42,514 nt of DNA from a virus, in the IMG/VR virus record IMGVR_UViG_3300045453_000087, positions 1-42,514 of that record. One strand, 5' to 3'. The position numbers and the translations under genes were made by a program. The notes below the pieces were generated by a model. That model made no database searches. It was given only the letters and a program-made list of their open reading frames with translations, and was not told the origin of the DNA. Position 1 is the first letter of the stretch. Each line of letters begins with the position of its first letter. Of this stretch, positions 1-42,198 are shown piece by piece.

Positions 1-1611
1 TTAATAGCGAACCAATTTCCCATTAAGCAAAGGCGATCTTGCTTCCACATTCACTGTCACGCCGGACTTAAATTCCACGGTGAATTTATCCTCGTAGATG
101 GTGACCTTCTCAATCAGCCGCCGGACAAACTGATCATCATATTCAGTAATGGCGGCGGTCTGTTCCCACAGGAATGCGCTCATATCGGCAATCCTTTTCC
201 GCAGTTCATCCCGACCGGCGCTCTCCAGTTGTACTTTTTGTTTTTCTCCACGTAGGCGGTAAATCTCATCGGCAACATCCTCGTAATCGGCCTTGGAGCG
301 GGCCAATTTCAGAAGCTCTGCCTGAAGCTCCTGAAGCCGCGCGTCGATGCTTGCCAGAGTCTGGTCATTTTCGTGAATCAGGACGGTTTCGATGTTATTT
401 TGCAGGGTGACAAGGAAGGTGTCCTTGTCGCACAGTGCTTGGTTGATAGCGGTAATCAGCACCTGCTCAATTTGGCATTCCGGCACTGTTCGTGCATCGC
501 AGAACAGGCCGGTGTTTTCCAACCTGCTGATGCAGCGCCAAACAACCGACTTTTTACCTCGATTGTTCCAATGAATCCTGCGGTAAAACTCACCGCAGCC
601 TCCGCAAATAATCATGTTTGAGAAACAGTGGTTACTGCTGAATGTCCTTTTCTTTCCGTTCGGGCTTGTGTGGACGATTCGGCGGCGGATAAGTTCTTCC
701 TGAACCTGCATGAAAATTTCACGCGGTATGATGGCCTCATGGTTGTTTTCCACATAATACTGCGGAACGATACCATGATTCCTTACCCGTGTCTTCGTGA
801 GGAAGTCCGTGGTATATGTTTTTTGCAAAAGGGCATCCCCGATGTATTTCTCATTTCGTAGGATCTGATTAATATTGCTGGTATGCCACTTTACCCTGCC
901 AGCGCCATTTAGGATGCCGTCGGCTTCCAGTCCTCGGGCGATTTTCAGCATACTGGCCCCTTCAAGGTATTCCCGGTAGATGCGCTTTACGATTTCAGCT
1001 TCCTCCGGAACAATGACCAGTCGCTTATTCTCATCCTTGGTATACCCGAGGAACCATTTGCAGTTGACCTGTATTTCGCCCTGCTGGTAGCGGTATTGCA
1101 GGCCCATCTTCACGTTCTGGCTTAAGGATTGGCTTTCCTGCTGGGCGAGGGAGGCCATGATAGTGAGCATGACCTCACCCTTGGAATCCATGGAATTGAT
1201 GTTCTCCTTTTCGAAGTACACGGGAATATTCTTTTCCTTCAGTTGGCGGATATACTTCAGGCAATCCAGTGTGTTTCTGGCAAACCGGCTGATGGACTTG
1301 GTAATGACCATGTCAATGTTGCCTGCCATGCACTCGTCAATCATGCGGTTGAATTCTTCGCGTTTTTTGGTGTTGGTGCCGGAGATGCCATCGTCCGCGT
1401 ATATTCCGGCCAGATCCCAGTCAGGATGGCCGGTGATGTAAGCTGTGTAATGTTCAATCTGCGCTTCGTAGCTGGTGGACTGCTCATCGCTGTCTGTGGA
1501 AACGCGGCAGTAGGCAGCCACCCGGAGTTTAGCTTTTTCCTCATCTTCATTTTTGCCTCTGGCATGCTTTCTGGCTGGGAGCACGGTGACGGTTTTGCTT
1601 ACATTCACCAT
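1..1611 (-). CDS. Large serine recombinase (integrase family)
   Basis: This 536-residue protein is a large serine recombinase, the enzyme class that integrates and excises phages and conjugative elements by a covalent serine-DNA intermediate. The N-terminal resolvase fold starts near residue 30 with [13 protein letters not shown], which holds the catalytic serine, followed by SISRFARN. A recombinase domain follows (about 180-320), then a zinc ribbon with CGGC and a later Cys pair (about 345-385), and a coiled coil near 420-475. It is last of three tandem recombinase genes: its ATG abuts the stop codon of the middle one, with GAGGTG upstream. The module follows the lysis genes, a common place for integrases in Clostridia prophages. 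Whether this protein or its 520-residue neighbour is the main integrase cannot be told from sequence. Confidence 0.93.
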
Positions 1612-2025
1612 TTACACCTCGCTTTCTATCAGGCTGTAGGCGTATTCCGCCTGCTGGAAGGGGTCGTCTAACCGTTCAGTGCCTTCTTTGATGCGGAAGA
1701 CGGTGGGATATATGACTTCATCATTAGCTTTAGGTTCATAGACCCGACCGAGTTTTTCGGCCCGTCTGATGCGTTCCGTTTCGGCAGTCTCAAACGTGTC
1801 CAAATCAATAATTGCCGGGTAGTACTCATCACCGATGTAATGTTTATTACGGAGCATCTTTCCGATAGCCGCATGGGATGTTAGGATTCCTGCCTTTTGC
1901 GCCGCAGTCGCCAAGGAATCACCGGATACATAAGCCCGAAATAGAGCCCTTATCTGTTCGGCAGCAAGCTCATCTATCACGGCTTTGCCGATTTCTATCC
2001 GATAGCCATATGGTGTGTGGCCCAT
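1612..2025 (-). CDS. Short recombinase-domain protein without catalytic domain
   Basis: This 137-residue protein matches only the middle part of a large serine recombinase: YGYRIEIGKAVIDELAAEQ, then a helix-turn-helix-like stretch and NKHYIGDEYYPAIID, which in full-length enzymes binds DNA next to the resolvase domain. The catalytic serine and the zinc ribbon are both absent. It is nevertheless an intact frame placed exactly between two full recombinases, with no untranslated spacing on either side, so it looks like a maintained gene rather than debris. I infer an accessory DNA-binding role such as directing integration against excision. The alternative is a degenerate copy that survives by translational coupling. 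Confidence 0.8.
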   Translation of the reverse strand: MGHTPYGYRIEIGKAVIDELAAEQIRALFRAYVSGDSLATAAQKAGILTSHAAIGKMLRNKHYIGDEYYPAIIDLDTFETAETERIRRAEKLGRVYEPKANDEVIYPTVFRIKEGTERLDDPFQQAEYAYSLIESEV

Positions 2026-3588
2026 TTATTTCACCAGCCTTTCTTTCAATGTAATGCCGCATTTTAATTCAAATCCAATCTCTGTCCGGGAAAGTACAAT
2101 AACCTGTTTGACAAAATTCTTGAAAACATCTCCGTCAAAGCGTTTCAGCATGGTTGCTTTGGTGGCATATTGCAGCAAGGCACTGACCTCGCTCAAATGC
2201 TTGTTCCCGCTATGAAGTAGGCGGTTGATGGACTCTTTCTGGCGCTGCAGTCGATCGGCTTCCTGAAGTAAATTATTGTTGCTTTTCTTATAAACAACGC
2301 GGTCGAGATAACCTTTGGTCATCAGATTGACCAGCACATTTTGCTGTTCTGCGTTTTCCTCGAGCTTTTTATCAATATCTTGAATGCTCACAAGGCTATC
2401 GTCGGTATTCACGCCGCGCAGGCCGATTAGTAGAGGCTTTAGCACTGTTTGATGGCTGAAGATAAGCTTGTTCATCATGGTAACGAAGGCGTATTCAAAA
2501 TCGGACTCCGGAATATATTTCATGGAACATTTCCTGATGTCCGCGATGTGAGTGAAGCAGCACCATGCAATGTATTTTCTGCCGCTGGAGTGGGTTCGGC
2601 GCCTGAATGTGCCGCCACACTGACCGCAAATGATTTTCCCAGAAAAAGCGTAACGGTTCTGGTATTTTTTGTTGTGCTTTTCTACGCCTTTTTCCTTGGC
2701 GCGCTGCTCAATGACTTTCTGAGCAGCCTCAAAATCCACACGACTGATAATCGGTTCATGGTGATTCCGAATCAGATACTGCTCTTTTTCACCATTGTTC
2801 TTATATCTGTTGAATAGACTGTCGCTATAGGTCTTCTGAAAGATAGCATCGCCGATGTATTTTTCGTTACAAGCCATACATCGGATAGTCGTGCCTGTCC
2901 ATCGGCCGCCTTTCTTGGATGGAATACTGCGGCGGTTCAGCTCGTCTGCAATCTTGTAAAGGCTTTTTCCGGACAGAATTTCAGCAAAAATGAACCTAAC
3001 GATTTCAGCCTGCTGTTTATTTACAACCAGCTCACCACTTACGGCATCGTAACCATGAGGCGAACACGCTATTTTGTAAGTGCCGTTTTGGAACCGACGT
3101 GTTACCGACCACTTGCTGTTTTCTGAAATGGATACCGACTCGTTTTCGGCCATTCCACTCAGGATTGACAGCATGAGTTCGCTTTCCATCGACCCGGTAT
3201 TAATGTTTTCTTTCTCGAAATAAATGAAAACTCCAAGGCCAAGCAGCTTTCTGACCAGTTCCAGGCAGTCCGTAGTGTTTCTGGCAAACCGGCTGATGGA
3301 CTTTGTTACGATGAAGTCAATTTTCTTATTTTCACAGTCGGAAATCATCCGAAGCAGCTCCGGCCGTTTTTCCTTTTTGGTGCCTGTGATGCCTTCGTCG
3401 TAATAAAGTCCGGCGAACTCCCAATCAGAATTTGCTCTAATGTAGGATTCGTAGTGCTTTACTTGCGCTTCCAGGCTCACCAACTGTTCATCGCTGTCGG
3501 TAGAGACACGGCAGTAGGCCGCGACACGCAGCTTGGGCTGTTCGATAAAATCAGCAGAATTTTGGGCGATTTTCGTTACCTTTTTCAA
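2026..3588 (-). CDS. Large serine recombinase (integrase family)
   Basis: This 520-residue enzyme is the first of the three recombinases. Its N-terminal resolvase domain carries [13 protein letters not shown] and SISRFARN, followed by the recombinase domain (about 170-290), a zinc ribbon with IICGQCGG plus a distal Cys pair (about 315-365), and a C-terminal helical region. The start is a TTG at 3588, preceded by AAGGAGG at suitable spacing. It is related to the 536-residue recombinase but clearly divergent, so the two are not a recent duplication. Sixty bases separate it from the SHOCT-like gene upstream. It is a candidate integrase for the element; which of the two enzymes acts on the attachment site is undecided. 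Confidence 0.92.
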   Translation of the reverse strand: MKKVTKIAQNSADFIEQPKLRVAAYCRVSTDSDEQLVSLEAQVKHYESYIRANSDWEFAGLYYDEGITGTKKEKRPELLRMISDCENKKIDFIVTKSISRFARNTTDCLELVRKLLGLGVFIYFEKENINTGSMESELMLSILSGMAENESVSISENSKWSVTRRFQNGTYKIACSPHGYDAVSGELVVNKQQAEIVRFIFAEILSGKSLYKIADELNRRSIPSKKGGRWTGTTIRCMACNEKYIGDAIFQKTYSDSLFNRYKNNGEKEQYLIRNHHEPIISRVDFEAAQKVIEQRAKEKGVEKHNKKYQNRYAFSGKIICGQCGGTFRRRTHSSGRKYIAWCCFTHIADIRKCSMKYIPESDFEYAFVTMMNKLIFSHQTVLKPLLIGLRGVNTDDSLVSIQDIDKKLEENAEQQNVLVNLMTKGYLDRVVYKKSNNNLLQEADRLQRQKESINRLLHSGNKHLSEVSALLQYATKATMLKRFDGDVFKNFVKQVIVLSRTEIGFELKCGITLKERLVK

Positions 3589-3647: not shown

Positions 3648-3860
3648 TTAGGGCATGATCGGTGCTAAAGCCGGAGAGAAAGACTCGCGGTTTAATGTTG
3701 TTATCTTGTTGAATTCATTCACAGTTATCAGGCCTTTTTCCAGCATGGATTCCAAGATTTTTTGCGCCAGAAAGTAATCATGCTCATGCTGCAATTGCTC
3801 CTGTGAAATAGGCTTTTTTTCAAGATTGATTTCCGTTTTTGCATTTGTAACGTATTTCAA
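3648..3860 (-). CDS. Small SHOCT-like protein of the recombinase module
   Basis: This 70-residue protein contains a short helical C-terminal-type segment (QHEHDYFLAQKILESMLEKG then LITVNEFNKI) that resembles the SHOCT motif often encoded just before serine recombinases in Firmicutes mobile elements. The start is a TTG at 3860 with GGGAGG nine bases upstream. That ribosome binding site lies inside a perfect 6-bp hairpin (3870-3884), and copy A of the repeated leader element lies directly upstream. Its function is unknown; position suggests a regulator or partner of the recombinases. Confidence 0.7.
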   Translation of the reverse strand: MKYVTNAKTEINLEKKPISQEQLQHEHDYFLAQKILESMLEKGLITVNEFNKITTLNRESFSPALAPIMP

Positions 3861-3869
3861 ATTTTAATT

Positions 3870-3937
3870 CCTCCCATCGGAGGGATAACTAACCCCCCTA
3901 CCATCCACAGGACAGCAAAGTGCGATTTGAGCACCGA
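3870..3937 (-). promoter_or_regulatory. Repeated phage leader element, copy A, with SD hairpin
   Basis: Read on the minus strand, this holds GGTGCTCAA, then 11 nt, then CTGTCCTGTGGA, the two conserved boxes also found near 34340, 38640 and 38705. Downstream come AGGGGGG, CCCTCC (3884-3879) and GGGAGG (3875-3870). The CCCTCC segment can pair with the G-run upstream or with the Shine-Dalgarno sequence downstream, but not both. This suggests a leader that can switch translation of the SHOCT-like gene. It could instead be a DNA operator or a phage promoter. Confidence 0.55.
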
Positions 3938-3954
3938 GAATATGGAACTTGGAG

Positions 3955-3994
3955 CAAAAAAATAGCCGCCGAGCGAAGGCAATCACTCGGCGGC
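3955..3994 (-). terminator. Rho-independent terminator after the lysis genes
   Basis: On the minus strand a perfect 9-bp stem (3986-3994 with 3965-3973, CTCGGCGGC arm) is followed within three bases by a run of seven or more T residues. It lies downstream of the lysis cassette and upstream of the integration leader, so it probably ends late transcription before the recombinase genes. Confidence 0.85.
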
Positions 3995-24242: not shown

Positions 24243-25487
24243 TTATTGTGCAGCGGATCGCAACTGCTCCACATCGCCGAACGCTGCCTTCACGCCGTCC
24301 CGGAGGAGAAATACATTCTCCGCGCCGCCCACCTGCTCGATATACCTTTTGACGATCACGTCGCAGAACTTTTCGTCCAGCTCCACCGTGTAACAAACCC
24401 TATCCGTCTGCTCGCAGGCGATGAGGGTGGAGCCGCTCCCGCCGAAGGGGTCGAGCACGATACAGCCCGTCAGGCTGGAGTTGAGTATGGGGTAGGCCAA
24501 AAGCGGCACCGGCTTCATTGTGGGGTGGTCGGCGTTCTTCCTCGGCTTATCAAACTCCCAGATGGTGGACTGCTTGCGGTCGGAGTACCAGGCGTGTTTG
24601 CCGGATTTCTTCCAGCCAAAAAGGATCGGTTCGTGCTGCCAGTGGTATGGCGAGCGCCCCAGCACCAGCGACTGCTTCTTCCAGATGCATGCGCCGGAGA
24701 GGTAGAAACCGGCGTCGGCAAAGGCCTTACGGAAGTTTAGCCCCTCGGTGTCGGCGTGGAAGACATAGATGCTCGCGTCTCTGGCCATCGCCTTTTCAGT
24801 CAGCGTAAAAGCATACAGCAGAAAACGATAGAAGGCTTCATCCGCCATGTGGTCGTTTTTGATCTTGCCCGCCGCGCCTTCATAATTCACATTATATGGA
24901 GGGTCGGTGACCACCAGATTTGCCGCCTTGCCGTCCATGAGCAGGGCGAAGGTTTCGGCGCGGGTGGAATCGCCGCAGACAAGGCGGTGCCTGCCTAAAA
25001 GCCACAGGTCGCCCGGTTTGGTGACCGCGGGTTTCCGCAGCTCGCTCTCCACGTCGAAATCGTCGTCTTTTACGCCGTCCGCAAAAGCGTCCTTAAACAG
25101 CGCGTCGATTTCGGCAGGGTCAAAACCGGTAAGAGAAAGATCAACGTCCGCCCCCTGCAGGTCGGCGATGACCAGGGCCAGCTTCTCCTGATCCCAGTCG
25201 CCCTGAATCTTATTGAGGGCGAGGTTGAGCGCCTTTTCCTTTGCGGCGTCCAGTTCCACTACCACGCAGTCGATGGCGGCAGCGCCGTCCGCCAGCAGTA
25301 TTTTCAGCCGCTGGTGGCCGCCCACCACGTTGCCCGTGGTCTTGTTCCAGACGACAGGTTCCACATAGCCAAACTCCGCCATGGAGCGGCGCAGCTTCTC
25401 GTATTCCGCGTCGCCTGGCTTTAAGTCTTTGCGGGGGTTGTATTTCGCCGCCTTAATTTTTGTGACGGGGATTTTTTGTATCTCCAA
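24243..25487 (-). CDS. ParB-domain fused DNA methyltransferase (DPPY type)
   Basis: This 414-residue protein has an N-terminal ParB-like domain (1-130) with YNPRKDLKPGD and the CTPase-type box GNVVGGHQRLKIL (52-64), then an amino-methyltransferase domain with TDPPYNVNYEG (194-204) and LDPFGGSGSTLIA near 352. The order catalytic motif then SAM site marks the beta class, and DPPY suggests m6A. TTG 25487 with GGAGG eight bases upstream starts translation. Phages use such enzymes to protect DNA from restriction, or to steer packaging or replication. Target site is not predictable here. Confidence 0.9.
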   Translation of the reverse strand: MEIQKIPVTKIKAAKYNPRKDLKPGDAEYEKLRRSMAEFGYVEPVVWNKTTGNVVGGHQRLKILLADGAAAIDCVVVELDAAKEKALNLALNKIQGDWDQEKLALVIADLQGADVDLSLTGFDPAEIDALFKDAFADGVKDDDFDVESELRKPAVTKPGDLWLLGRHRLVCGDSTRAETFALLMDGKAANLVVTDPPYNVNYEGAAGKIKNDHMADEAFYRFLLYAFTLTEKAMARDASIYVFHADTEGLNFRKAFADAGFYLSGACIWKKQSLVLGRSPYHWQHEPILFGWKKSGKHAWYSDRKQSTIWEFDKPRKNADHPTMKPVPLLAYPILNSSLTGCIVLDPFGGSGSTLIACEQTDRVCYTVELDEKFCDVIVKRYIEQVGGAENVFLLRDGVKAAFGDVEQLRSAAQ

Positions 25488-25490
25488 GCC

Positions 25491-26789
25491 TTATCCCTCC
25501 AGTCTAGCCGCTTTTGCGCCGGTGAAAGTTTCCCAGCGTTTGACCGCCAAGTCGCAGTAAACGGGCGATAGCTCCATAGCGTAGCAGCGGCGCTCGGTCT
25601 GCTCCGCCGCGATGATGGTGGTGCCGCTGCCGGAAAAGGGCTCCAAAACAATGCCGCCCCGGTCTGAGTGCATCTTGATGCAGCGCCAGGGCAGCTCTAC
25701 CGGGAACATGGCCGGATGCTCCTTGTTGGCGCGCACCGTGGTCATCTCCCAGATACCCGCGTAGCCCCATTTTTTGCGCTCGTCTTTAGTCAGCCTTTTT
25801 ACAAATCTGTAGCTGTGCCCGGCGAAGGCCGAGAGCCACAGATATTCCTGGTCGTTGTACTCCTCGGCCTCGCCGTTTTTGCTGAAGGTTGAAATGTACT
25901 CGTACTGCTGTACCGGCTTGTTGGATACCAGGTGATAGGGGCCGACGCCGAAATTCATCCCTTGCTTTTTCCAGACGCGGATCCAGATCGGGCGGTAGCC
26001 GTTTTCGGCAAACATATTGACCGAGTACACGCTGGTCGGCTCGATGAACTGGGAGCCGGTAGCGTATAGGTCGCCTAAGTTCCAGCAGACGATCTCCGCG
26101 TATCTGCACAGGTTTTTAATCACCGGCCGGATAGTCTGAAACCACGGCTCGATGCCCGCCTTTTCGTACTCTTTGCCCACGCCGTAGGGTGGCGAGGTGA
26201 CCGCTGCTTGGGCGCGGCCGCCGTCCATGAGCTTGGCGAAATCAGCTGCGCTGGTGGAGTCTCCGCACATCAGGCGGTGTCTGCCCAAAAGCCAGATATC
26301 CCCCGGCAATGTTTGCGCGCCTTCGACTTCGATGCGTTCCTTTTCCTTATCCACATCGAAGTCGTCCTGCACCGCTTCCTTGGCGTGCCAGCGATTGAGC
26401 AGCTCGTCGATCTCCGCTGCGTCAAAGCCGGTGAGGGAGACGTCGAAGGCGCCCGCGTCAAGCTCCGCCATCAACTCCGCCAGCTTGGTTTCATCCCATT
26501 CGCCCTGAATCTTGTTGAGGGCGAGGTTGAGCGCCTTTTCTTTCTGCGGGTCAAGCTCCACCACCACGCAGTCGATCTCGCTGTGGCCTAAATCAAGCAG
26601 CACCTTCAGGCGCTGGTGGCCGCCCACCACATTGCCTGTGCGGCGATTAAAGATTACCGGCTCCACATAGCCGAATTCCTCGATGGAGCGGCGGAGCTTT
26701 TGATATTCCTTATCGCCGGGCTTTAAATCCTTGCGTGGGTTGTATCGGGCGGGCCTTAGAAGCTCCGCTTTGATTTTTTCTATCTTCAT
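25491..26789 (-). CDS. ParB-domain fused DNA methyltransferase (SPPY type)
   Basis: The 432-residue product repeats the design of its neighbour: ParB-like domain (1-135) with YNPRKDLKPGD and VVGGHQR, then a methylase with TSPPYGVGKEYEKAG (198-212) and LEPFSGSGTTIIAAEQ near 394. The N-terminal halves of the two proteins are about two-thirds identical by eye, whereas the methylase halves diverge, so one may have swapped its catalytic part. SPPY is usual for m4C enzymes or some m6A ones. ATG 26789 has AGGAGG upstream and overlaps the small terminase stop (ATGA). Confidence 0.9.
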   Translation of the reverse strand: MKIEKIKAELLRPARYNPRKDLKPGDKEYQKLRRSIEEFGYVEPVIFNRRTGNVVGGHQRLKVLLDLGHSEIDCVVVELDPQKEKALNLALNKIQGEWDETKLAELMAELDAGAFDVSLTGFDAAEIDELLNRWHAKEAVQDDFDVDKEKERIEVEGAQTLPGDIWLLGRHRLMCGDSTSAADFAKLMDGGRAQAAVTSPPYGVGKEYEKAGIEPWFQTIRPVIKNLCRYAEIVCWNLGDLYATGSQFIEPTSVYSVNMFAENGYRPIWIRVWKKQGMNFGVGPYHLVSNKPVQQYEYISTFSKNGEAEEYNDQEYLWLSAFAGHSYRFVKRLTKDERKKWGYAGIWEMTTVRANKEHPAMFPVELPWRCIKMHSDRGGIVLEPFSGSGTTIIAAEQTERRCYAMELSPVYCDLAVKRWETFTGAKAARLEG

Positions 26790-27367
26790 CTGTCGCCCCT
26801 CCTGGCGGAGAGCAGCCTCTCCATCACGTCGTCCTGCGGATTGCCGACAAAAGCGGTGGTGCAGTTTTGCTTGACGATGTCGAAAATCTCGTACCAGAGA
26901 AGGTTCGCTTGTTTCTGGAACGACTGGCTCATCTGCACAAACGGACTGGCTATGGCGCCGCCCGTGGTTGGGTGCTTGCCCAAAAGCCCGTAGGTGCTGA
27001 TGGCTTCCTCGCACTGGATGTAGCGCGTGAACGCCTGCGCGTAGGCTTCAATCAGCCGCGGGTTGACGAATTTCTCGCAGCCGCGTTCTTTAAGCCATTT
27101 CCAGGTCTCAATGAACAGCGCGTCCGCGCCGAGCGGTTTCCCATCTCTTTGCCGCGCGCTTAAGTAGTCGCTTGGGGAAGGGATATCTTCGCCGAATAAA
27201 TCCACCGCGCCGCCCAGTTCGCCCGCTTCAAGCAGCGACTCAGGAGGCAGTTTAGGGGTTTCCAAAACGCGTGCGGCCTTGCCCGCCGTGATTTTTTCCG
27301 CGAGGGGCTGCGGCTTGTCGCCGGCGCGCACACGGCGGCCGCCCCTGTTTGTCCCGTCTTTAGCCAC
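26786..27367 (-). CDS. P27-type small terminase subunit
   Basis: This 193-residue protein resembles P27-family small terminase subunits, which recognise phage DNA and bring it to the large subunit. Basic N terminus, then PPESLLEAGELGGAVDLF, ALFIETWKWLKERGCEKFVN and TYGLLGKHPTTGGAIASPFV, the last a family hallmark. The start is GTG 27367 with AAGGAGG nine bases upstream. It overlaps the methylase gene downstream (ATGA), so expression is coupled to DNA modification. A plus-strand toxin-antitoxin pair separates it from the HNH gene, with which phages of this type normally pair it. Confidence 0.88.
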   Translation of the reverse strand: MAKDGTNRGGRRVRAGDKPQPLAEKITAGKAARVLETPKLPPESLLEAGELGGAVDLFGEDIPSPSDYLSARQRDGKPLGADALFIETWKWLKERGCEKFVNPRLIEAYAQAFTRYIQCEEAISTYGLLGKHPTTGGAIASPFVQMSQSFQKQANLLWYEIFDIVKQNCTTAFVGNPQDDVMERLLSARRGDR

Positions 27368-34077: not shown

Positions 34078-34280
34078 CTGATTCCCTCCAGTCTTGCTCT
34101 GCTGCACTTGGCGCAGTAAACCGACGTGCCATACAGATCGCCTTCGCCGTCGCAGAACAGTTCCGCAAGGTTAACGCAAACCTCACGCCCGCAGCCGGGA
34201 CAGGCGCAGAACACATTGTCGTCGTGCAGCTCAACGCTGAGCTCAGCCGTTTTGCTGATTCTTTCTCTTACATAGAACAT
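34074..34280 (-). CDS. Small zinc-finger-like protein
   Basis: This 68-residue protein contains CACPGCGREVCV and a later YCAKC, four well-spaced cysteines that could bind one zinc ion as a ribbon. It is otherwise acidic. ATG 34280 follows GGAGGTC and the ribosome site is inside the foldback of leader copy B. It opens the DUF4406-like and VapE genes, all overlapping by ATGA, so regulation here would control the whole replication group. The function is unknown. Confidence 0.65.
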   Translation of the reverse strand: MFYVRERISKTAELSVELHDDNVFCACPGCGREVCVNLAELFCDGEGDLYGTSVYCAKCSRARLEGIR

Positions 34281-34288
34281 TTTTTTGA

Positions 34289-34358
34289 CCTCCTCTCTTG
34301 AGGGCAGCATTGCCCTTTAAGCTTCACAGGACAGAAACTGCCGATGTGAGTACCAAGC
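34289..34358 (-). promoter_or_regulatory. Repeated phage leader element, copy B, with SD hairpin
   Basis: On the minus strand GGTACTCAC, 11 nt and CTGTCCTGTGAA repeat the boxes of the element. Downstream AGGGCA, TGCCCTC and GAGGAGG follow: the middle segment could pair with either neighbour, which would hide or free the Shine-Dalgarno of the zinc-finger gene (34289-34295 with 34300-34303 paired). The polymerase stop codon (34360-34362) is adjacent. Confidence 0.55.
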
Positions 34359-38413: not shown

Positions 38414-38579
38414 CCGTTTTCCCTCCTTCCGTGTTTACTTTCTCTTGCTGTGAAAGCGTGGTCAGCTTCCGGGCAAGGCGTTTTGACACCACGCTGATTG
38501 CCGTGAGGACATCCGCCAATTCCTCGTCCATTTCACGGGTGCGGCATTCGGCATCAGATTGCTTTGCCTGTGTCTGCAT
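38397..38579 (-). CDS. Small early phage protein, coiled-coil-like
   Basis: This 60-residue protein has one long helix (DAECRTREMDEELADVLTAI, then SVVSKRLARKLTTLSQQEK) and acidic ends. No known family is recognised. ATG 38579 has GGAGGTT seven bases upstream, and the ribosome site pairs with CCTC in leader copy C. It is the first gene after the tandem leader elements and overlaps the next by 17 bases. Confidence 0.6.
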   Translation of the reverse strand: MQTQAKQSDAECRTREMDEELADVLTAISVVSKRLARKLTTLSQQEKVNTEGGKTDEQDE

Positions 38580-38586
38580 TTTTGAA

Positions 38587-38655
38587 CCTCCGTTCCGAGG
38601 GATGTTTTTTCCCCTCACCCTCCGTAGGACAGAAGAGGGAAGGTTGAGTACCTAT
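38587..38655 (-). promoter_or_regulatory. Repeated phage leader element, copy C, with SD hairpin
   Basis: On the minus strand GGTACTCAA, 11 nt and CTGTCCTACGGA match the element. After it come GAGGG, CATCCCTC and CGGAGG, so the middle segment can pair either way and hide the Shine-Dalgarno of the 60-residue gene. It lies 40 bases after copy D in the same gap. Confidence 0.55.
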
Positions 38656-38679
38656 AGCTGAAAGATTTTCGTAAAAGTT

Positions 38680-38727
38680 CTGCCCTCTGATATCCACAGG
38701 ACACCAGAGGGCAGATTGAGTACCGAG
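38680..38727 (-). promoter_or_regulatory. Repeated phage leader element, copy D
   Basis: On the minus strand GGTACTCAA, 11 nt and GTGTCCTGTGGA start right after the stop codon of the sigma-like gene. A perfect 10-bp stem CTGCCCTCTG/CAGAGGGCAG (38705-38714 with 38680-38689) encloses the second box. No gene follows directly; copy C does. The pair looks like a tandem control region. Confidence 0.55.
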
Positions 38728-38728
38728 G

Positions 38729-39235
38729 TCAGGTTAAATGTTTCAGGCGTTCGCGTAACTGGGCGAACAACTTTGTTTTTCTCTTATTAATGGCTTTCTG
38801 AGACAAGCCGATATCAGCGGCGATTTCCCTCTCGGATTTGCCGATGCTGAAAAGTTGCATGATCCGGCGGTTATCTGGGTCAAGTTCTTCTAGGGCGGCG
38901 TATAGTTCTTCGAGAAACAGCTTGTCTGCCACAATTTCAGCAACATCCACAGGGTCAGATGCTTCAAAACCATCCTCGGTGAACTTTTCCAGCGAAAGGA
39001 CACTGCTAGTTCGCTCTATTGGCTGCAATCCTTTTTTCGCTCGCTCTAAATCGCAAACACGACAGCTCTTGGTGCAGCGGTTGCCGTTTTTATCACGGCA
39101 TTTATTTTCACGTTCCTTTCGCTTTCGCTCTGCCCAAGCCGGACGTTTGTAGGCGAGGTAGACTTCTTCGGATACTGGGATTTGCTGATCATCGATTTCG
39201 ATGGTGCGTTGAGAGATTGACTGATGTTTGTCCAT
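38729..39235 (-). CDS. Sigma-70-like HTH regulator (first early gene)
   Basis: This 168-residue protein ends in a sigma-70 region-4-like helix-turn-helix: LDPDNRRIMQLFSIGKSERE then IAADIGLSQKAINKRKTKLF. The middle has cysteines in KCRDKNGNRCTKSCRVCDLE, which may bind zinc. It is the first gene of the phage early operon and resembles the small sigma-like proteins of Clostridia prophages. ATG 39235 has AAAGGA, locked in a 9-bp foldback (39238-39273). It may recognise phage promoters such as the repeated elements just downstream, an inference from location. Confidence 0.8.
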   Translation of the reverse strand: MDKHQSISQRTIEIDDQQIPVSEEVYLAYKRPAWAERKRKERENKCRDKNGNRCTKSCRVCDLERAKKGLQPIERTSSVLSLEKFTEDGFEASDPVDVAEIVADKLFLEELYAALEELDPDNRRIMQLFSIGKSEREIAADIGLSQKAINKRKTKLFAQLRERLKHLT

Positions 39236-39714: not shown

Positions 39715-42198
39715 GTGATGAGATTATGTTTTGGAACATTTGCGCGGGTGCTTCAGCTATGCAAGCTCGACGTTGTAACCGATCCCCGGCTCGTCGGGAC
39801 AATGACACGTACGGTTGATCCGAACTGCCAATATATAAAGAGTGAGAATGCTACATCAGTGCATCGCTTGTTGAATTGCACTGGGAACCTTTCTACTGGC
39901 AATATTATTGATGGCAGGATTGGAGTCATCAGAAGACCCGGTAAGAGCATCAGTAATATTCTTTTGATGGCACCAACAGCAAATAGAGATGATTTGATTC
40001 GTAAATTCGGTGAGGATGTCGTATGCCTGCTAAATGAAGACAAGAAATTTCAAGCAGTCCTTGCTATATTGGATATCATCCAAAAGGATACCGTCCTAGA
40101 TGACGACAGTGCAGAGGGCAAGAAAAGGAGTTTTGAAAAATATGTCGGGACAACAAAAAACGCCTTGCTTTTGCAGAGCGAATACGTTCTTTCTGATTTG
40201 TTGGCTGGTATTTTCCTATATACCGTCGCTGCGGGTGTTGTAAACACCGTCGGCAGAGAGGGTGTTCAGACTATTACGTCAGAGTATATAAGTGGAATCG
40301 AAGACTCAAGGGGTATAACGGTTATTAATTGTTACCCTCAACTGGCGCAAATCGTGCAAAGTGGAACTGTGGATGCAACACCAGTATTTGAGCAAGAAAA
40401 TTTCTTAACATATCTTAATAATGTTAGAAATAAGTACAGCACCATAAAAACACTTCTATACAATGATCAGCCAAAGCCGTTTTACGATTTTTATGTGTGT
40501 AACAATATTACTTGGCGTACACGTGTTGAAGGAGAGATAATTCCATATAAAAGGGAGCTTGTTAGTGATGCCAACATTAAAAAATTGACCGAAATCTCTC
40601 ATTTTATTTTTATAACTGGTGCGGGTGGCCTTGGAAAATCTATGATGATGCGCCATCTTTTACTAAATGCAATTGATAACTACAATGATTTCAAATTAGT
40701 TCCAGTCTTTATTCCGCTAAAAGAATTTGATGACGCTTCTGGCAAACTGTGTGATTATATATTTTCGAAAATTGACGATTTTAATAGCGGTATAACAAAA
40801 TCAGATCTCGAAAACGTTCTAACCGCTGGATGTTGCCTTTTGCTTTTGGATGGGCTTGATGAAATAGGAATGGATAACATTGGTTATTTTGAACGTGAAT
40901 TGGCTTCATTTACTGACAAATATCCAAATAATGACTATGTGATTTCATCGCGCCCTTACCAATCATTTGTATCGTTTGATCGGTTTAGCATTTTACGCTT
41001 GTTGCCATTTAATTTAGAGCAAGCATTGCGCCTGATTGACAATTTGGACTTCCGTCCCGACGATCCTACGATAAAAGTAAAATTCAGAGATGAGTTAGCA
41101 GCAAGGCTCTATCGTACACATAGGGCTTTCACAGAAAATCCTTTGTTACTGACAATCATGCTGATGACATTTGAGATGTTTGCTGAAGTCCCATCGCAAA
41201 TGCATATCTTTTACCGAGAAGCCTTTAATGCATTATCGAGAACACATGACGCAAGTAAGGGTGCTTACAAGCGTGAACTAAAAACAAAACTCTCGGTTGA
41301 TGCCTTTGCGGAAGTGTTTGCGGAGATTTGCTTCCGCACGTACTGGAACGAGAGGTTTGAATTCAGTATGGCTGAATTTGAGGTTTATTTCAAAAAGCTG
41401 ACCAATCCGTACGCCGGATCTGTTTCTCCCGACGATTTTATGTACGACCTGTGTTATAGCCTATGCTTGATGTACCAAGAAGGCGGTAGATACTATTTTA
41501 CGCATCGCTCGTTCCAGGAGTACCTCAGCGCGGTCTTCTTATCAAAACAAAAAGACTCAGTGATTAGTAAACTCGGCGACTTTTTTGAAAAACGAGAAAG
41601 AAGAATGCGCGGTGACCAGACATTCTCCATGCTGAATGACTTGATACCGAACAAAGTAGACGAATTTATTTTTATACCTTATTTAGAAGAATTGTTTGAT
41701 AGGTGTGATAAGGCAGAGGGTTATTGGACTTTCCTTGCTGAAATGCATCCGATCATAGCATATGATACAGGCGAAGCACCAGGTTTTTATCAACCACCGA
41801 ATTCATTTTTGTTTACCTTTTTGCTTTCCTTAATTAAACGGCCGCCACGGGGCTCATATTATGAATTGAAGGATCTTCCAGAATATGATGAGTTTATAGA
41901 AACCAAATTTTTCTGGATGCCAGTAGGTGGTGACGAGGATGAGATGGATATCGTTCCCGAAAGTAGGATTCCCAGTGAATATATAGAAGCTCACGGTGAA
42001 CCAGAAATTGCCGGTCGTCATTTTGAAGCCGATCTTTCCCATGTGCTAGAAAATTCCGAGGATTATAGAGATTTTATTAAAATGTTGGATGACAACAACT
42101 TTATTTATAAGATTCAATATAATCAAGCGCGTGAATACCTTGAACTACTCAAGACAAAGCAAAAGTCCACAGATGCATCGTTGTTGGATTTGTTATAA
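39715..42198 (+). CDS. NACHT-type STAND NTPase, probable defence protein
   Basis: This 827-residue protein has a central NACHT-type NTPase: Walker A ITGAGGLGKSMM (300-311), Walker B CLLLLDGLDEIG (374-385), and YVISSRP (408-414). A helical C-terminal sensor-like region holds HRSFQEYLSAVFLSK near 600. The first about 280 residues match no effector I know: LCFGTFARVLQLCK and LVGTMTRTVDPNCQY come first, and a mildly apolar stretch lies near 160-177. Such proteins sense infection and trigger cell death or block replication. GTG 39715 or ATG 39718 start equally well. The gene is more AT-rich than the phage and faces the other way. Confidence 0.82.
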   Translation: MMRLCFGTFARVLQLCKLDVVTDPRLVGTMTRTVDPNCQYIKSENATSVHRLLNCTGNLSTGNIIDGRIGVIRRPGKSISNILLMAPTANRDDLIRKFGEDVVCLLNEDKKFQAVLAILDIIQKDTVLDDDSAEGKKRSFEKYVGTTKNALLLQSEYVLSDLLAGIFLYTVAAGVVNTVGREGVQTITSEYISGIEDSRGITVINCYPQLAQIVQSGTVDATPVFEQENFLTYLNNVRNKYSTIKTLLYNDQPKPFYDFYVCNNITWRTRVEGEIIPYKRELVSDANIKKLTEISHFIFITGAGGLGKSMMMRHLLLNAIDNYNDFKLVPVFIPLKEFDDASGKLCDYIFSKIDDFNSGITKSDLENVLTAGCCLLLLDGLDEIGMDNIGYFERELASFTDKYPNNDYVISSRPYQSFVSFDRFSILRLLPFNLEQALRLIDNLDFRPDDPTIKVKFRDELAARLYRTHRAFTENPLLLTIMLMTFEMFAEVPSQMHIFYREAFNALSRTHDASKGAYKRELKTKLSVDAFAEVFAEICFRTYWNERFEFSMAEFEVYFKKLTNPYAGSVSPDDFMYDLCYSLCLMYQEGGRYYFTHRSFQEYLSAVFLSKQKDSVISKLGDFFEKRERRMRGDQTFSMLNDLIPNKVDEFIFIPYLEELFDRCDKAEGYWTFLAEMHPIIAYDTGEAPGFYQPPNSFLFTFLLSLIKRPPRGSYYELKDLPEYDEFIETKFFWMPVGGDEDEMDIVPESRIPSEYIEAHGEPEIAGRHFEADLSHVLENSEDYRDFIKMLDDNNFIYKIQYNQAREYLELLKTKQKSTDASLLDLL

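Follow-up and report, generated by a model that had tools for sequence, protein, structure and literature searches.

Organization of the locus

The window analyzed here is a 42,514-nt stretch of viral DNA and carries a 45-nt repeat in four copies, all on the minus strand: A (3938-3894), B (34357-34313), C (38655-38611), and D (38727-38683). The feature under study (3937-3862, minus strand) belongs to copy A. An earlier note had treated the leaders of A, B, and C as independent sequences. They are instead members of one repeat family that includes the fourth copy D, and all four share one exact motif, GGTRCTCA-N13-TGTCCT, identical in form in each copy. These are the only four matches in the window, where allowing up to two mismatches yielded no fifth, against a chance expectation of 0.0007 and none found in 300 resampled windows.

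Site A (3909-3935, minus strand) comprises a putative -35 element GGTGCTCA at 3935-3928, a spacer at 3927-3915, and a putative -10 element TGTCCT at 3914-3909, with transcription predicted to start at about 3903-3901. Its leader (3870-3898) contains a G-rich arm (GGGGGG, 3898-3893), a C-rich arm (TCCCTCC, 3885-3879), and the Shine-Dalgarno (SD) sequence GGGAGG (3875-3870), followed by a TTG start at 3860. The first gene of the integrase operon encodes a small SHOCT-domain protein (3648-3860, minus strand; PF20612, 1.3e-16). Downstream lies a serine recombinase operon (1-3588, minus strand, with genes at 2026-3588, 1612-2025 [partial], and 1-1611) bearing Resolvase and Recombinase domains, and its downstream end is the window edge. 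Two of its products are full-length recombinases, and the 137-aa protein between them has the Recombinase domain only. On the same strand, an intrinsic terminator (GCCGCCGAG...CTCGGCGGC and a T run, 3956-3994) can be read in the sequence that separates site A from the lysis genes, and most A sites in relatives also have such a terminator just ahead of them. A serine recombinase signature was found after 24 of 27 A-type sites; for the remaining three, the available sequence extended only about 0.9-1.5 kb past the site. In five prophages (L185, L202, L214, L261, and L262) the same type of recombinase operon is headed not by a SHOCT protein but by a small helix-turn-helix-like protein (MNQLQKERI.../MTGEQKNQI...).

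Site B (34328-34354, minus strand) lies within the replication operon and precedes a small gene and then a primase operon. Its leader (34289-34317) has a G-arm AAGGGCA (34317-34311), a C-arm TGCCCTC (34306-34300), an SD GGAGG (34293-34289), and an ATG at 34280. Site C (38626-38652, minus strand; -35 at 38652-38645, spacer at 38644-38632, -10 at 38631-38626) precedes a small gene and then a DUF2800/polymerase operon. Its spacer contains CCCTC (38639-38635), and its leader (38587-38622) has two G-arms (38622-38618 and GAGGGG at 38616-38611), a C-arm CCCTC (38601-38597), an SD GGAGG (38591-38587), and an ATG at 38579. Site D (38698-38724, minus strand; -35 GGTACTCA at 38724-38717, spacer at 38716-38704, -10 TGTCCT at 38703-38698) lacks both an SD and its own gene start. 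It can form a hairpin (38679-38715) in which a spacer arm (38715-38704) and a G-arm (38690-38679) make a 12-bp helix.

Elsewhere in the window, the gene at 39715-42198 (plus strand), beside the phage early region, looks like one for defence: its 827-aa product combines NACHT and SNaCT14 domains, and its N-terminus resembles HamA (DUF1837) of Hachiman. Two neighbouring DNA methyltransferase genes (N6_N4_Mtase; 24243-27014, minus strand) have repeated DNA in common (75-78% identity, spaced by about 1.3 kb), the second of them also bearing a ParB-like N-terminus.

Candidate promoters of a phage sigma-like protein

Directly upstream of D and C lies the gene of a 168-aa phage protein with a C-terminal sigma region 4 (38729-39235, minus strand). 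Its match to Pfam Sigma70_r4_2 (1.7e-5) was just under the cut-off and that to NCBIfam TIGR02937 (1.9e-9) was below the cut-off of that model; its predicted structure resembles region 4 of E. coli sigmaE bound to -35 DNA (TMt 0.82). The N-terminus carries four conserved Cys and is modelled with low confidence, and no sequence match to sigma region 2 was found in the protein. With no recognizable region 2 at its N-terminus, the protein is referred to here as sigma-like and is not classed among the ECF sigma factors; the lack of a recognized reader for the TGTCCT -10 weighs against the promoter reading.

In dozens of Firmicutes prophages, the motif occurs together with the gene of this sigma-like protein; cultured carriers include Brevibacillus reuszeri DSM 9887 and Anaerocolumna sedimenticola CBA3638. 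It was present in the viral records of 15/15 relatives and, across viral contigs and many Firmicutes genomes, occurred with a 13-nt spacer just downstream of the sigma-like gene. The spacer length is fixed in all four window copies and in homologues down to about 32% sigma identity. Viral records searched whole mostly contained two to four sites each, on the same strand as the sigma-like gene: one or two beside the gene and another at a distance of about 4.2-5 kb, to which the longer records add a site about 30 kb away. Sites in genomes were similarly distributed, a few chance matches included.

The -35 element also tracks the recognition helix of the protein. An NKRK helix goes with G at the second -35 base in 54 of 56 sites and an NNRK helix with T in 31 of 32, although the NNRK group may represent a single evolutionary event. 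The motif was not found for sigma-like relatives with other recognition helices. Among these, L154, L155, L156, L166, and L290 lack a GGTACTCA-type motif, and their promoters probably use another -35. On this sequence evidence, the repeats are very probably promoters of the phage's own sigma-like factor, composed of the -35 GGTACTCA, a 13-nt spacer, and the -10 TGTCCT.

The motif looks like an ECF-type promoter. ECF promoters such as those of Mycobacterium tuberculosis sigmaH combine a stringent -35 with a rigid spacer (PMC6411747). The sites described here are similar in their rigid spacer, in a stringent -35 (GGTAC compared with GGAAC-like) read by region 4, and in a short -10 core with GT; they differ in that the phage protein has no recognizable region 2 and that the -10 is TGTCCT. 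An element recognized as RNA (a riboswitch or a put-like element) was rejected as first choice: the spacing is fixed but the spacer sequence varies, and the -35 bases track the sigma helix. A search of leaders A-D with the Rfam 15 covariance models gave no match up to E=5, a tRNA search found none, and we found nothing relevant in the literature on the motif or on such a phage sigma.

Pairing between leader segments

The minus-strand coordinates confirm that in A, B, and C the SD is preceded by a C-rich segment and this in turn by a G-run. The C-rich segment can pair with either, and the two pairings are mutually exclusive, as the earlier note had proposed. In A the two differ little in strength (about -11 kcal/mol for G-arm:C-arm and about -9 kcal/mol for C-arm:SD). 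The note overlooked a further pairing partner, a segment in the promoter spacer, upstream of the G-arm.

We collected 127 distinct sites and tested three pairings by exchanging arms between leaders. The G-arm:C-arm pairing is arm-specific over all types (z=-4.6, P=2e-4, n=67), in B (P=4e-4), and in A (P=0.014); in C it is nearly invariant and hence uninformative in this test. The C-arm:SD pairing is not arm-specific in the same 67 leaders (P=0.71), a test to which the near-constant SD gives little power. Of the two pairings in the earlier note, the first exceeds chance and the second does not. Because the G-arm resembles the SD, a C-arm that pairs with the G-arm usually pairs with the SD too. 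It had also been expected that homologous leaders would not lose one arm without a compensating change, and this expectation failed in part. In three B-type leaders (L124-B, with CGCCCCG, L127-B, and L042-B) the complementarity of C-arm and SD is lost or weakened and the G-arm:C-arm pairing is kept. In L218 and L231 the C-arm is lost entirely, and there the SD is predicted to pair with the promoter spacer itself.

Pairing of the promoter spacer with the G-arm was supported by the exchange test in D (P=0.001) and C (P=0.0014) and was not above chance in B. Within type A alone, exchanging spacers gave no significant result without the -10 and a weakly significant one when the -10 was allowed to pair (P=0.047). 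Compared with B spacers placed on the same G-arms, the own spacers of A, C, and D fit much better (P=6e-5, 0.0014, and 0.00098), and B spacers as their own control were indistinguishable (P=0.89). Most spacer-exchange tests lose significance when the relatives are thinned to 75% identity. The spacer:G-arm helix of the window's site A is weak (-3.9 kcal/mol without the -10) and an outlier among A leaders.

Covariation among leaders was counted as cells with changes on both sides of a helix. In 21 A leaders, the fold predicted for read-through RNA (spacer and -10 with the G-arm, C-arm with the SD) presented 9 double-change cells compared with 3.1 after shuffling (0/500), with contributions from both helices, and the D helix presented 14 compared with 5.3 (0/500); the shuffles keep the relatedness among leaders, so that these 0/500 figures are not probabilities. 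G-arm:C-arm alone presented no covariation beyond shuffles in the same A leaders (380/500). Covariation support for the B hairpin is modest.

Predicted opening of the Shine-Dalgarno sequence

We computed the cost of opening the SD in RNA started about 6 nt past TGTCCT and in RNA started further upstream. For A leaders, the predicted cost rises from 2.56 to 7.50 kcal/mol on read-through and is higher in 22/22 leaders. The read-through cost exceeds that obtained with fully shuffled upstream DNA (6.42, P=0.005), with a shuffled spacer (P=0.0017), and with a shuffled -10 (P=6.5e-5). Base composition explains much of the difference between long and short RNA. Starts anywhere between 0 and +9 nt are predicted to leave the SD of A open, and starts outside that range to close it. 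No closing above shuffles was observed on read-through in B and C.

Where D and C stand in tandem, RNA started at D is predicted to leave the SD of C open (1.96), and shuffling the G-arm of D to close it (3.51, P=3e-4). RNA from upstream of D has a less open SD (4.75), a cost above that with a shuffled D spacer (P=0.02) and not above that with fully shuffled upstream DNA (P=0.26). For the window itself, the predicted costs change from 0.77 to 6.32 in A, from 2.81 (D start) to 6.93 in C, and from 1.96 to 1.86 in B. Site A is thus predicted to be closed on read-through despite its weak spacer helix.

Most A leaders are predicted to adopt the spacer:G-arm and C-arm:SD pairings in read-through RNA. 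In four others (L185, L076, L262, and L256) it is the -10 region that would pair with the SD, and in L214 it is the spacer. That different predicted pairings lead to the same end result is, to us, the strongest single argument that a start-site-dependent switch has been selected.

Possible mechanism and alternative explanations

Taken together, the best explanation of these data, to which we assign a probability of about 0.6, is that promoters of the sigma-like factor are combined at A, C, and D with a switch of the SD that depends on where the RNA starts. For the translational switch taken by itself, the odds appear somewhat better than even. The motif, its link to the sigma-like protein, and the covariation are read from the sequences; the start sites, the effect on translation, and the biological purpose are what we infer from them.

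Sites A, C, and D would encode up to four RNA segments, with a short 5' UTR following the promoter: the pyrimidine-rich promoter spacer (segment 1), the G-arm just past the start (segment 2), the C-arm (segment 3), and the SD (segment 4). Read-through RNA would carry segment 1, which would pair with segment 2 and free segment 3 for segment 4, so that the SD is hidden and the first gene is poorly translated. RNA started at the promoter would lack segment 1, leaving segment 2 free for segment 3 and the SD open. The state of the switch would thus be set by the start of the RNA and not by a choice between two pairings in one RNA. At A, this would prevent leaked late transcripts from yielding integrase. 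At D-C, in RNA started at D, the unpaired G-arm of that site would hold the SD of C open. Site B, inside an operon and without segment 1, would be translated either way. The selected translational switch proposed in the earlier note remains the best reading for A and tandem D-C in a form other than the one proposed, and B gives no sign of it. As a tentative extension to the whole phage, each G-arm may mark RNA begun at its own promoter and the spacer may act as its antidote, so that RNA with the wrong start folds on itself and stays untranslated, with a D-C relay acting over about 70 nt.

Another explanation, which we consider less likely, is that the sites are promoters only. The hairpin after the start would then be a plain 5' stabilizer or a ribosome-standby element, and the C-arm:SD and spacer pairings would be by-products of pyrimidine-rich and purine-rich tracts. 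This would account for an arm-specific G-arm:C-arm hairpin beside a C-arm:SD pairing that lacks such specificity, for the lack of closing above shuffles in B and C, and for the nearly equal closing of the SD with shuffled upstream DNA. It does not account for the double changes that preserve the spacer:G-arm and C-arm:SD helices of A and the helix of D, nor for the spacers of A, C, and D fitting their own G-arms when those of B do not. Inverted repeats around the -10 might also act in DNA, as repressor operators. The near-perfect palindrome of D, overlapping a promoter and lacking its own gene start to control, would suit this explanation, but the sequence and position of the arms differ among D, A, and C, the arms are absent in B, and their changes are compensatory with G-U pairs, which fits RNA better; we therefore regard operators as quite improbable. 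We give still less credence to the version in the earlier note, a two-state leader in a single RNA species (G-arm:C-arm or C-arm:SD) switched by a ligand, a protein, or temperature. Both pairings can indeed form in A, B, and C, with similar strength in A, but the uncompensated loss or weakening of C-arm:SD complementarity in several B leaders speaks against it, and the leaders match no known RNA family or riboswitch.

The start-site-dependent switch works like a known system. In phage T4, the SD sequences of e, soc, 49, and I-TevI are hidden in long early transcripts and free in RNA from late promoters, and the late promoter sits in the 5' strand of the structure that hides them (PMC3014915, PMC2988022). 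The present sites would likewise carry a promoter in the 5' strand of an inhibitory fold, an arrangement found for the spacers of A, C, and D and not for that of B; the start site would decide the state of the SD, and a phage-encoded sigma would be needed. Unlike in T4, the element is found in unrelated Firmicutes phages, has up to four segments and an alternative helper hairpin, is repeated at three or four sites with a putative tandem D-C relay, and would guard an integrase operon. We propose a likeness of function and do not claim relatedness to the T4 system. In phage lambda, int/sib retroregulation limits int from the upstream-initiated transcript, and int can be expressed from its own promoter (PMC5300877). 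The purpose would be similar, as integrase is limited from the wrong transcript; sib acts downstream, whereas control here would be upstream, at the SD. The dual-promoter helD (PMC12802891) was considered as a parallel and set aside, its mechanism being different.

Linking a little-studied family of phage sigma-like proteins to a promoter motif offers direct access to the timing of their genes. If the proposed switch is real, promoter spacers would carry RNA information, and the start-site-dependent control of translation known from T4 would also be used by temperate phages of Firmicutes, where it would insulate integrase from late read-through.
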